Source: Jannaschia faecimaris (lineage in GTDB: Bacteria > Pseudomonadota > Alphaproteobacteria > Rhodobacterales > Rhodobacteraceae). From it: a DNA stretch of 64,000 bases. The notes under the pieces were generated by a model, which was given only the letters and a program-made list of their open reading frames with translations, had not been told where the DNA came from and searched no databases. Every line of letters starts with the position of its first letter. Positions within the stretch are counted from its first letter, which is position 1. The DNA lies in the NCBI RefSeq assembly GCF_900107415.1, contig NZ_FNPX01000019.1:1-64000 (forward strand), in the 5' to 3' direction. The position numbers were made by a program, and so were the translations under genes. Positions 12,431 through 21,567 of the stretch are shown piece by piece.

Positions 12431-12505
12431 GGCCCGTTCGTCTATCGGTTAGGACGCCAGGTTTTCAACCTGGAAAGAGGGGTTCGATTCCCCTACGGGC
12501 TGCCA
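12431..12505 (+). tRNA. tRNA-Glu (TTC)
   Basis: The acceptor stem GGCCCGT pairs with ACGGGCT, followed by discriminator G and an encoded CCA. The anticodon loop has TTTTCAA with anticodon TTC, and the T-arm is GGGGTTCGATTCCCC. It borders the metal-resistance island, and such tRNA 3' ends are common integration targets. The bases just downstream change to AT-rich, island-like sequence. Confidence 0.96.
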
Positions 12506-12912
12506 CTGAATTTCCACAAAATATTGATTAAAATGAGAAATAAAGTTCTCGCGTAGATCGTATCCCCCGCTACATCCCCCACAATGACGGCGACTGCCTC
12601 TAGGCACAGAAGGTTTTTGCGGTCACTGAATACGGTAGTGCGGACGGCTCTTTCCAAAGCACGCCCCTAATGCAGAGCAGCGCTTAGGAGCCGGCGTGGT
12701 CGTGGCGCTCCCCGTGACGAACTTGTCCCATAATGCTTCCTTCCATCCCCGAGAAAGGATCGCACCATCAAACCGTGGGATCAAAAACCTAGGGTCAGGA
12801 CTCATGAACGGTAGGTTGCCGAATGCAAGGAAAGCGGACCTTGGTGCACAGAACAGCGAATGACCGCTCCGAGCCCATAACTACCACGATCCTGCGACGC
12901 GGCGAATGCCCG
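12506..12912. other. Gene-poor left border of the metal island
   Basis: This 407-bp stretch begins AT-rich right after tRNA-Glu and has a tandem-like TATCCCCC..ACATCCCCC motif at about 12559-12580. A 60-codon minus-strand frame (12623-12805) and a short plus-strand frame from 12583 resemble nothing I recognise. It may be scar sequence from past integrations. No functional gene can be supported. Confidence 0.4.
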
Positions 12913-14128: not shown

Positions 14129-14149
14129 ATATACCCCATATAGGTATAT
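14129..14149. promoter_or_regulatory. Predicted CsoR operator upstream of 14153
   Basis: ATATACCCCATATAGGTATAT is an inverted repeat that differs at one base from the perfect palindrome upstream of the csoR-like gene (18907-18927). It ends three bases before the ATG at 14153, so a bound repressor would block transcription start or leader escape. CsoR operators typically have C-rich/G-rich half-sites in an AT frame like this one. Confidence 0.75.
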
Positions 14150-16760: not shown

Positions 16761-18177
16761 ATGAATCCGGTTTCCCGACGATCTTTCCTGAAAGCGACTG
16801 CGGCCCTCGGTGGCACGGCCCTGATGGCTAAACCTTCCTTTGCCGATACCGATCTGTCCGTTTTGCGGGCGGCTCCCGCATCGGCGCAGCTCGCACCGGC
16901 TGGATACCCGGCAACGCCGGTCTGGGCTTATGCGTCTGAAGGTCTTGGCACCGTTCCCGGCCCGGAAATTCGCGTCACTGCCGGGGATCGCATCCAAAAG
17001 CGGTTCATCAACGATTTGCCGCAACCCACTGCCGTTCATTGGCACGGTATTCGCATCGAAAATGCGATGGATGGCGCGGTACCGCTGACGCAAGCGCCAG
17101 TGCCTGTCGGTGAGACTTTCGACTACGATTTCGTGGCTCCCGATCCCGGCACCTACTGGTATCACGCCCACAATCGGAGCACGGAACAGGTTGCGCGCGG
17201 TCTCGCGGGTCCGCTGATTGTCGAGGACCGCGAACCCTGGCTCGGACAGCCTGGTGCGGCCACGCGCGAGCTGGTGCTGGTTCTCGATGACTGGCTGCTC
17301 GATGGTGAGGCCGCAATTGTCGAGGACAGGTGGGACGACCTGCATGCCGCCGCGCATGACGGCCGGATTGGCAACACCGTCACCGTGAATGGCAGCGCTT
17401 ATCCGGTTCTGACTGTTCAGCCGGGCGAGCGGCTGCGTCTCAGGATCATCAACACCGCTACGGCACGGATCATGCCTCTGGCATTGCCCGACCTGGCTGA
17501 TCGCGCTCGACGGGCACCCGGTCGCGCCACGCGATATGGGAACGCTTCTCCTCGGACCCGCGCAGCGCGCCGACGGGGTAATCGACGTGCCCGGTGACGG
17601 GTCGGCTGCAAGTCTTCTGATCGACCCCGGCAACGGGGAATGGGTCGAGCTGGCTCGTTTTGAGGCCGAAGCGGACTCCCTACCGGTGCAGAGCGGTGAC
17701 GTGAGGCCCCTGCCTGCCTGGGGAACGCTCGCGACCCCGAATTTGGAAGATGCGCAGCGCGAGACGTTGCTGATGGAAGGCGGCGCGATGCGCGGGATGC
17801 GTGAAGCCCGCTATGAAGGCGAAACCATGGCTTTCCGCGAGCTGGCCGACAACGGCATGGTCTGGGCCTTCAATGGCGTGGCAAACGGGATGGACGCGCC
17901 GATGTTCCGCGCCGCGCAGGGCCGGACGGTTCATATGGAAATGACCAACCGCTCGATGTTTCCGCACGCGATCCATTTGCACGGCCACCATTTCGAGGTT
18001 CTGGCCCGGAGCGGCGCGCTGAATATGGCGGGCGATGTCCGTGACACGGTTCTGGTCGGAGCCGATGAAACCGTGGAGATCGCCTTTGTCGCGGATAATC
18101 CCGGCGCGTGGATGCTGCACTGTCACATGCTCTCGCATCAAAAGTCGGGCATGACTGGCTGGTTCGAGGTGGTCTGA
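16761..18177 (+). pseudogene. TAT-exported multicopper oxidase (CopA-like), frameshifted
   Basis: The start ATG follows AGGAGG and a twin-arginine signal (SRRSFLKATAALGG). The first frame carries two copper motifs, AVHWHGIRIENA near residue 93 and TYWYHAHNRSTEQ near residue 134. The second frame (open from before 17500 to 18177) carries HAIHLHGHHFEV and MLHCHMLSHQKSGM, the last with the type 1 Met. Frame 1 reads ..MPLALPDL and frame 2 resumes ..WLIALDGHPVAPRD, so a +1 shift falls at about 17481-17500. All four copper motifs exist but are split between frames. The gene is inactive unless this is a sequencing error or the ribosome shifts frame. Such oxidases convert Cu(I) to less toxic Cu(II) in the periplasm. 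Confidence 0.85.
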
Positions 18178-18860: not shown

Positions 18861-18906
18861 AAGCTGAATATCCCTCTTTGTGGAACCATGGGCTGACAAT
18901 CTGGCT

Positions 18907-18927
18907 ATATACCCCATATGGGTATAT
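18907..18927. promoter_or_regulatory. Predicted CsoR operator, divergent promoter
   Basis: ATATACCC-CATAT-GGGTATAT is a perfect inverted repeat with 8-bp arms. It lies between csoR and the DUF305 gene and matches the site at 14129-14149 in 20 of 21 bases. The position allows autoregulation of csoR and control of the DUF305 gene. Confidence 0.82.
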
Positions 18928-18965
18928 CGGAGAGACAGACAATGGCACGTCATTGAGACACTACA

Positions 18966-19637
18966 ATGGATTCAAGGAATACACATCACGATAGCCACGC
19001 GGGAAAATCCGGAGGCTATGGCCGGTTCTTCGCCATGATCGGCACCTCGACGGTCGTGATGTATGGCCTGATGTATCTCAACACCTACGCGCTGGATCAT
19101 GTCTTCTTCTCGCAGACGCGCATGTGGATGGCCCTCTACATGGGCGGGATGATGGCGATCATCATGCTGGCTTTCATGCTCGGCATGTATTCCAACCGGA
19201 AAACCAACATCGCGATCTTCGCGGGCGCTGTTATCGCCTTTGCGGCTGGCGTCTATCTGGTGCGGTCACAGGACACTGTAGGTGACGTGGCCTGGATGAG
19301 GGCGATGATCCCCCACCATTCCATCGCGATCCTGACAAGCGAACGCGCCAATATTTCCGATCCCCGCGTGCGCGAGCTGGCGGATGCGATCATCGAGGCG
19401 CAGCGCGGCGAGATTGCGGAACTGCAGCGATATATCGCGGACATCGAAGCCAATGGGAATGCGGCACCCCGCATCCGCGCTGCAGCGCCTGTCAGACTGA
19501 GCACCGGGTCGCATCTGGTGCGGGAGTGGAATGGGCGCAGCTATCAGGTCGAGGTTGCCGGAGATGGTTTCCGGATGGACGGACGCAGCTGGCCCTCGCT
19601 CTCGGCCATCGCGAAGCACATTACCGGGACGACCTAG
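18966..19637 (+). CDS. DUF305 membrane protein fused to a DUF2924 tail
   Basis: A 223-residue chimera. Residues 1-160 form a DUF305 protein: a His-rich start, about three membrane segments, then the PHHSIAILTSERA motif typical of DUF305, common in copper and silver clusters. Residues from about 165 (RIRAAAPVRLSTGSHLVREW to AIAKHITGTT) match the C-terminus of DUF2924 proteins, which normally precede serine recombinases. The fusion is in frame. The frame meets a TAG at 19635-19637 where the DUF2924 motif would have Trp (GTT-W-SGPRFFGL); the remaining SGPRFFGLTGRDGA then reads on to a TGA that overlaps the recombinase start. DUF305 function is probably intact; the tail is a recombination scar. 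Confidence 0.85.
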   Translation: MDSRNTHHDSHAGKSGGYGRFFAMIGTSTVVMYGLMYLNTYALDHVFFSQTRMWMALYMGGMMAIIMLAFMLGMYSNRKTNIAIFAGAVIAFAAGVYLVRSQDTVGDVAWMRAMIPHHSIAILTSERANISDPRVRELADAIIEAQRGEIAELQRYIADIEANGNAAPRIRAAAPVRLSTGSHLVREWNGRSYQVEVAGDGFRMDGRSWPSLSAIAKHITGTT

Positions 19638-19678
19638 TCGGGGCCCCGGTTCTTCGGCCTGACGGGAAGGGACGGCGC

Positions 19679-21319
19679 ATGAAGAAGATTCGCTGTGCCA
19701 TTTACACTCGCAAGAGCTCCGATGACGGGCTGGAGCAGGAGTTGAACTCGCTGCACGCCCAGCGGGAAGCCTGTGCGGCCTATGTCGCCAGCCAGAAGCA
19801 CGAGGGCTGGGTGCTGTTGCCGGATGCTTATGACGACGGCGGGTTGTCAGGTGGCAGTCTGGAGCGGCCCGCGCTCAGGCAGCTGCTGGACGATGTCCGG
19901 CAGGGCAGAGTGGATCAGATCATCCTCTACAAGATCGACCGACTGACCCGGTCACTGGCGGACTTCTCGAAGATCGTGGACATCCTCGATGCGGCGGAGG
20001 CGTCTTTCGTGTCCGTGACCCAGTCGTTCAACACGGCCACGAGCATGGGCCGGCTGACCCTGAACATGTTGCTGAGCTTTGCTCAGTTCGAGCGCGAAGT
20101 GACCGCCGAGCGCATCCGAGACAAGATCGCGGCCTCCAAGCGCAAGGGGCTGTGGATGGGGGGCAATGTCCCGCTTGGCTATGATCCGGATGGTCGGACG
20201 CTGCGGATCAACGAGGGCGAGGCAAAGACCGTCCGGACGCTCTATGACCTCTACGACCAGCACGGCACCGTTCGCGCCGTCAGGGAGCGGGCAGACGGAC
20301 TGGGCCTCCGGAGCCGCCGCCGAACCTCAGCGAATGGCACGACGACCGGCGACCGCCCGTTCGACCGGGGGCACATCCATCACATTCTGACCAACCCGAT
20401 CTACGCCGGGCGCATCCGGCACCGGGACAAGGTGTTTGAGGGTCAGCACCCGGCGATCATTAAGCCGGAGACGTGGGAGGCCGCCCAGGCGCAGCTTCAG
20501 GATGGCGCGGCGAAAAGCCGTTCAAAGACGACGGTCACCCGCCGCTCCCCTCTCTGCGGCAAGCTCTTTGATGAGACCGGCGACCGGCTGACGCCGTCGC
20601 ATTCAAAGACGAAGCAGGGCGTCCGCCTTCGCTACTACATCTCGCACCGGCTGGTCGCGAAGAGCGGCGAGGCGCAGCAGAACGCCTGGTGCCTGCCCGC
20701 GGCTGAATTTGAGAGTAGGATGATCGATCTGCTCCGCAAGTTGCTACCGGCATCGGGCTTCGCGACAAAGCTTCTGCCGCATGCAACGGCGGATCAGATC
20801 GGTAAGGCCGCGTCGGCGCTTGCAAAGGTCGGTGACAAGGCCGAACCTGATACGCTCTTCAGTCTGATCACCCGCATCGACATTGCGCCCGGCAGGCCGG
20901 ACCTGCACCTGAGGGCCGATGCAGTCGCCGAAGCCATTGGCGCAGACAGTTGCAGTGTCGCAGAAGACGCGCTCTTCGCGACCTTCCCGTTCCGGCTGCG
21001 AAAGCGTGGCGTCGAAACGAAGATCATCCTCGCCGAGGCACCGGCAGGTATCGACGAGGCACTCATCCGCAACATCGCCAGAGCGAATCTCTGGTTCGAG
21101 CAGATCAAAACGGGCAGAACTCTTTCGGAGATCGCAGAGGCCGAGCGCACCACGAACGGCAGGATCCATAAGCTGATTGATCTGGCCTTCCTCGCTCCTG
21201 ACATCATCCGCGATGTCCTCGACGGCAAACAACCTCTGGGATTCACGTCCGACTGGTGCGTACGGCACGCTCTGCCGGGCGACTGGCAAGACCAGCGCGC
21301 TCTGATCGCGACTCTCTGA
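19679..21319 (+). CDS. Large serine recombinase
   Basis: A 546-residue site-specific recombinase. The N-terminal resolvase domain has the catalytic serine region AIYTRKSSDDGLEQELNSL and the YKIDRLTRSLADF signature with essential Arg residues. It is followed by a Recombinase domain (GNVPLGYDPDG.., ILTNPIYAGRI) and a long C-terminal DNA-binding part. The start ATG overlaps the ancestral DUF2924 stop (ATGA). Such enzymes catalyse integration and excision of genomic islands; this one lies at the island edge, 173 bp from tRNA-Gln. The gene appears intact and may be able to mobilise the island. Confidence 0.93.
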   Translation: MKKIRCAIYTRKSSDDGLEQELNSLHAQREACAAYVASQKHEGWVLLPDAYDDGGLSGGSLERPALRQLLDDVRQGRVDQIILYKIDRLTRSLADFSKIVDILDAAEASFVSVTQSFNTATSMGRLTLNMLLSFAQFEREVTAERIRDKIAASKRKGLWMGGNVPLGYDPDGRTLRINEGEAKTVRTLYDLYDQHGTVRAVRERADGLGLRSRRRTSANGTTTGDRPFDRGHIHHILTNPIYAGRIRHRDKVFEGQHPAIIKPETWEAAQAQLQDGAAKSRSKTTVTRRSPLCGKLFDETGDRLTPSHSKTKQGVRLRYYISHRLVAKSGEAQQNAWCLPAAEFESRMIDLLRKLLPASGFATKLLPHATADQIGKAASALAKVGDKAEPDTLFSLITRIDIAPGRPDLHLRADAVAEAIGADSCSVAEDALFATFPFRLRKRGVETKIILAEAPAGIDEALIRNIARANLWFEQIKTGRTLSEIAEAERTTNGRIHKLIDLAFLAPDIIRDVLDGKQPLGFTSDWCVRHALPGDWQDQRALIATL

Positions 21320-21492
21320 ACACAACTCCACGGACACTCGTATCGCGCAAAGCCCGACCTCAGACTTCGGTTAAGACTGGGGCATATCTGCGGCGCACGA
21401 GCGGTCTGCGTTGAGCCGCTATAGCTGTAACCTGCTGAAATACCGACGCTACCTGGAGCGACAGTCGTACGGTCTGCTTTTGAAGAAGTGTC

Positions 21493-21567
21493 TGGCTGGG
21501 ATGGTAGGATTCGAACCTACGACCTGCGGTACCAAAAACCGTTGCGCTACCACTGCGCCACATCCCA
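21493..21567 (-). tRNA. tRNA-Gln (TTG)
   Basis: On the minus strand the acceptor TGGGATG pairs with CATCCCA, then discriminator G and encoded CCA. The anticodon loop is TTTTGGT, giving anticodon TTG, and the T-arm is GTAGGTTCGAATCCTAC. The D-arm GCGC-AGTGGTA-GCGC is intact. It marks the right edge of the metal island. Confidence 0.92.

Follow-up and report, generated by a model that had tools for sequence, protein, structure and literature searches.

The closest described systems to the locus presented here are the following: (i) CopM and other DUF305 copper-binding proteins, which share with it the DUF305 domain and a copper cassette context, CopM being described in passages of PMC4335983 as acting in copper resistance; (ii) the Wolbachia phage WO where, according to passages of PMC10299305 and PMC11376236, a DUF2924 gene also lies beside a (large serine) recombinase; and (iii) the RAMA domain (MPND-DNA, 7ydw), treated further below. 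For integrative mobilizable elements, in the relevant passages of PMC5704250, tRNA 3' ends are the sites of single tyrosine recombinases and serine types disrupt dispensable genes. DUF2924 itself is seldom named in the literature searched.

The DNA analysed, hereafter the window, is a stretch of 64,000 nucleotides, namely positions 1 to 64,000 (forward strand) of contig NZ_FNPX01000019.1 of Jannaschia faecimaris (GCF_900107415.1). It contains a chimeric gene whose product would be taken for an ordinary DUF305 protein, although the last quarter of it is the remnant of an integration module. The gene and the recombinase behind it are laid out as follows:

18966-19637, plus strand: chimeric open reading frame (ORF), DUF305 with a DUF2924 tail, 223 amino acids, by translation and Pfam
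19284-19442, plus strand: DUF305 (PF03713) match, residues 107-159
19471-19482, plus strand: joint interval, cargo homology reaching ~19480 and module homology starting at ~19474
19483-19634, plus strand: remnant of the DUF2924 C-terminal domain within the chimeric ORF, profile positions 79-124
19635-19637, plus strand: TAG where most relatives have Trp, by translation and tail comparison
19638-19682, plus strand: rest of the DUF2924 C-terminus beyond the TAG, closed by a TGA overlapping the recombinase ATG
19679-21319, plus strand: serine recombinase, 546 amino acids, with Resolvase and Recombinase domains

The first ~168 residues of the chimeric ORF are DUF305 and the last ~50 are DUF2924. 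With Pfam, DUF305 scores 38.6 bits at residues 107-159 (PF03713 cut-off 27) and DUF2924 62.5 bits at residues 136-222 (cut-off 31.2), the part of the latter match before about residue 170 being an over-extension into a DUF305 helix, because DUF305 relatives align to residue 168. Taken in isolation, the tail (19482-19634) gives 60 bits to DUF2924 positions 79-124/135, above the PF11149 cut-off of 31.2; the PF11149 match in the own genome has an E of 5.4e-23, and the tail is up to 78% identical to intact relatives of other genera. At the level of sequence, a chance likeness of the tail to DUF2924 is excluded. The sequence-only reading, which had assigned the C-terminal 55-60 residues to DUF2924, was right as to identity and slightly generous as to length, the matching part covering about 47-53 residues.

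Beyond the TAG, the frame reads on as SGPRFFGLTGRDGA up to the TGA at 19680-19682, which overlaps the recombinase ATG (19679-19681); this continuation had been reported before and is confirmed by translation of 18966-19682. The old coupling of DUF2924 and recombinase is, as claimed, still readable in the sequence, but the stop-start overlap is now a fossil only, because translation stops at the TAG, 41 nt short of the ATG. The TAG removes the final 14 residues encoded in the DUF2924 frame, including the conserved WSGPRFFGL. At its position, 89 of 93 distinct DUF2924 tails (a convenience set taken from the fetched loci and not selected for Trp) have Trp, one each has Gln, Val and Arg, and the window alone has a stop. 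Such a TAG in a remnant would fit relaxed selection. A full DUF2924, with both its helical N-domain and its C-domain, is not found here, the N-terminal half being absent from the 420 nt upstream in the three same-strand frames. It had been proposed that this half be looked for elsewhere: the genome holds a single DUF2924 match and no second one and, since the genome consists of 48 contigs, the missing half could sit in a gap. A search of the own genome for DUF3489 also gave no match, but the same search was silent in control genomes, so this is a weak absence.

The tail is foreign to the DUF305 relatives compared. A scan of species genomes yielded at least 590 DUF305-encoding stretches; among the best 80 of these at least 590, all of which end within their contigs, none has the tail motif, and their fetched flanks contain no recombinase relative at E up to 1e-4. 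The counter-example named beforehand, i.e. a DUF305 protein carrying such a tail away from any recombinase, was thus sought in the same 80 and not encountered. The CopM model (NF049983) gives the chimeric ORF 42.9 bits, below its curated cut-off of 90. Among plasmids, 236 records match 18900-19700, none of them covering 80% of the query, and the 25 of the 236 that were listed all stop at or before 19480.

The position of the joint can be read from both sides. DNA homology to cargo relatives reaches 19476-19480 in the best cases, and a DUF2924 relative from another genome (G114) aligns without gaps from ~19474, which places the switch at about 19471-19482. At the joint, no long repeat is reported. 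The joint separates the cargo from the integration module inside the island, whose outer limits are elsewhere. Hence, of the island junction that had been announced at this place, the fusion seam stands, while the island is bounded by tRNA-Gln on the right and by an IS481 stub with tRNA-Glu on the left. The left part comprises the following features:

12431-12505, plus strand: tRNA-Glu, left limit of the native chromosome, adjoining recJ
12694-12792, no strand assigned: truncated IS481-type end, 99 nt, 94% to a plasmid copy
12919-19480, no strand assigned: plasmid-type copper cassette of 11 genes, by plasmid homology and Pfam

The order of the cassette is Crp/Fnr (minus strand), two hypotheticals, DUF411, cytochrome c, CopC, CopD, multicopper oxidase, hypothetical, CsoR-type regulator (minus strand) and DUF305. 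All 11 of the 11 genes tested from a plasmid of Sulfitobacter S190 have counterparts in the window, in the same order and with 58-89% protein identity; the next gene on that plasmid (MauE/DoxX-like) is missing from the window. The multicopper oxidase (16761-18171), a single gene on the Sulfitobacter plasmid, is in contrast split in the window, with the N-terminal match running to 17534 and the C-terminal one starting at 17497 in another frame. Two near-identical palindromes, ATATACCCCATATRGGTATAT, occur at 14129-14149 and 18907-18927, one ahead of a cassette gene and the other between the regulator of CsoR type and DUF305, and are presumably operators. About 190 nt of unassigned DNA separate tRNA-Glu from the IS481 stub. 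IS481-related stretches were also seen near tRNA-Gln in a genus genome (G001). As cause of the joint, IS481 was rejected: the sole stub seen belongs to the left edge, 6.7 kb from the joint.

In relatives, the usual gene order is DUF3489, DUF2924 and serine recombinase, in agreement with the earlier statement that DUF2924 normally sits just before such recombinases, and DUF3489 upstream of DUF2924 was confirmed by profile in the three loci tested (L094, L095 and L100). Of this module the window retains the tail, the recombinase and the conserved end at tRNA-Gln:

21482-21498, plus strand: conserved element end GAAGAAGTGT(C/T)TGGCTG, against the tRNA-Gln 3' end, presumed att core
21493-21567, minus strand: tRNA-Gln (TTG), presumed attachment site

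The recombinase (Resolvase 122.8 bits, Recombinase 60.1 bits, no internal stops) would be a large serine recombinase by the domain criterion, and it is the one recombinase match in its own genome. Among 17 loci fetched with wide flanks (the window, L126-L132, L247-L254 and L154), nine have a tRNA gene 3' of the recombinase, namely tRNA-Gln in the window, L128, L247, L248, L252 and L254, and tRNA-Ser in L130, L131 and L132. There is none in the other eight (L126, L127, L129, L249, L250, L251, L253 and L154), among which L126 has a 17-nt piece of a tRNA-Gln end and L250 a tRNA-Ser upstream only. A tRNA-Arg in L129 was rejected as target, since it overlaps the DUF2924 gene, upstream of the recombinase. 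DUF2924-linked serine recombinases thus adjoin tRNA-Gln and tRNA-Ser genes on their 3' side. Set against the cited passages of PMC5704250, serine recombinases located at tRNA 3' ends are of some note.

The spacing is similar among several of these loci. The last recombinase codon and tRNA-Gln are 176 nt apart in the window (173 nt from the recombinase stop to the tRNA-Gln 3' end), 175 in G633 (L247), 169 in G414 (L248) and 174 in G114 (L254); the range is 169-177 nt when L252 is included, where the recombinase match is limited to the last 107 residues, and the distance is ~217 nt in L128. The end sequence GAAGAAGTGT(C/T)TGGCTG is common to the window and both module copies of genome G032, and is found in part in G633. 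These G032 copies (L127 and L128), with closely similar recombinase modules, lie ~97 kb apart, one at tRNA-Gln and the other with only the TGGCTG core in common.

On the left, an 18-nt tRNA-Gln end (up to 2 mismatches) was searched for and occurs once in the genome, as the right-hand copy only; the presumed 6-nt core TGGCTG is absent from both strands between 12506 and 14270, from tRNA-Glu onward. The left limit of the element is undefined because no second att site was found. For the same reason the island, although its recombinase frame is intact, is probably stuck.

The flanks are also informative. Both recJ-tRNA-Glu and tRNA-Gln-mutase are on one contig in 9 of 19 other genus genomes, always with 37 kb or more between them, and on separate contigs in the remaining 10. 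What comes after tRNA-Glu in a relative is located here at the end of contig C34, with a GGDEF gene and then an IS4/5-type transposase at the contig end. This native neighbour of tRNA-Glu (C34:197880-198837, L156), with the transposase at its end, marks a rearrangement breakpoint. Given that the tRNA flanks lie apart in relatives and that C34 ends in this way, the island sits at a chromosomal rearrangement.

It had also been proposed to look for other islands with cargo joined to DUF2924 before recombinases, and a few comparable loci were seen. A DUF2924 survey of 345 family genomes gave 205 matches in 117 genomes (of which the rows of 21 hand-chosen genomes with weak best matches were listed in full), and a scan for the N-terminal half covered 125 tail places in 124 fetched loci, a redundant and non-random set. 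The N-terminal half is lacking in the window, L154, G633, G136, G310 and G587. Five loci besides the window show unrelated DNA joined to an N-truncated DUF2924 before a related recombinase, one of them (G587) weak, its contig reaching only ~100 nt beyond the matched stretch on the upstream side. On the viral contig of L154 (3258-4190), a JAB-ThiF gene is cut within ThiF, whose match is limited to positions 2-46 of 238 before the joint, and is followed, across the joint, by a DUF2924 tail and then a recombinase that is 66% identical. In G633, at tRNA-Gln, the joint adjoins a hydantoinase gene (recombinase 69% identical), and in G310 a phage head-tail attachment gene. G121, which begins at a contig edge, and the degenerate G617 were excluded; in one G032 copy the N-terminal half looks frameshifted. 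In-frame fusion selected as a rule was rejected, the cargo frame differing from the DUF2924 frame in L154 and the neighbour genes lying on the opposite strand in G633 and G310.

Taken together, the chimeric gene is very probably an accidental fusion at the seam of two modules in an integrated, decayed and rearranged element. One would be a DUF3489-DUF2924-serine recombinase integration module of the kind found at the tRNA-Gln 3' end, and the other a plasmid-type copper cassette with DUF305 last. At ~19471-19482, DUF305 lost its own end and DUF2924 lost everything upstream of its inter-domain linker; the event may have been non-homologous. The earlier claim that the copper cluster must have been joined into a DUF2924 gene agrees with the switch of homology at the joint, but its "must" does not hold: insertion of the cassette and loss of DUF3489 together with the 5' half of DUF2924, by an internal deletion within a cassette-bearing element, fit equally well.

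An alternative that is rather improbable makes the DUF2924 linker a preferred, possibly selected exchange point, at which upstream cargo is swapped while C-domain, recombinase and att end remain one unit. In its favour, four of six breaks are in the linker (window, L154, G633 and G587), two within the C-domain (G136 and G310) and none in the N-domain; but these six truncations are a small, post hoc count that includes G587 with only ~100 nt upstream on its contig, joints in the unconserved linker can be located only roughly, the C-domain itself is cut in two of the cases and interrupted in the window, and weaker matches starting at profile 25-35 (G024, G272 and G175) lie outside the six joints. 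Mis-assembly of two unrelated contigs is very unlikely: the genome is a draft of 48 contigs and the outer flanks are far apart in all nine genus genomes with both on one contig, but no long repeat is reported at the joint and similar joints occur at five loci from independent assemblies, one of them weak. That the tail was kept as a new function of the copper protein is scarcely credible since, although it is in frame, open over ~50 residues and modelled (with low confidence) as a discrete domain, the stop deletes its last 14 residues with WSGPRFFGL, it occurs in 0 of the best 80 of at least 590 other DUF305 relatives, and a domain of DNA-binding type has no evident periplasmic role.

Under an accidental fusion, chance in-frame joining would give DUF305 a disordered linker and a small domain of four strands and one helix. 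The model of the chimera has low confidence (pLDDT 61.8), and its single tail relative (L154 row, alignment A3) is misplaced. Helices 17-42, 49-74 and 78-101 were taken as membrane-spanning, with DUF305 outside; from these predicted positions, the tail domain would be periplasmic and of no use to a DNA enzyme. If the fused protein still has an activity, this most likely comes from its DUF305 part. Once recognised, seams of this kind help in drawing the limits of islands and in reading their history.

As regards DUF2924, its C-domain appears to resemble in fold and profile the DNA-binding domain RAMA (PF18755; L186 433-852, alignment A6), and this likeness suggests a fold for the family. Neither the window tail nor the modelled member matches RAMA at E up to 10, and sequence searches of the PDB, whether by DUF2924 profile or by the tail, returned nothing useful. 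Tentatively, and with considerable doubt, DUF2924 may be a two-domain DNA-binding partner of tRNA-directed serine recombinases (helical N-domain and RAMA-like C-domain), with the linker as a recurrent cargo-exchange seam and with the RAMA-like domain, recombinase and att end staying together as a unit.

The comparison with known systems can be summarised in three points: (i) with respect to RAMA (MPND-DNA, 7ydw), DUF2924 has an extra helical N-domain, and the fold likeness of its C-domain is not proof of DNA or 6mA binding; (ii) with respect to the CopM/DUF305 proteins, only the window gene bears a foreign C-terminal tail in this comparison; and (iii) while in the passages on Wolbachia phage WO DUF2924 is named as a separate protein, the window keeps only its C-terminal part, fused to a copper gene.
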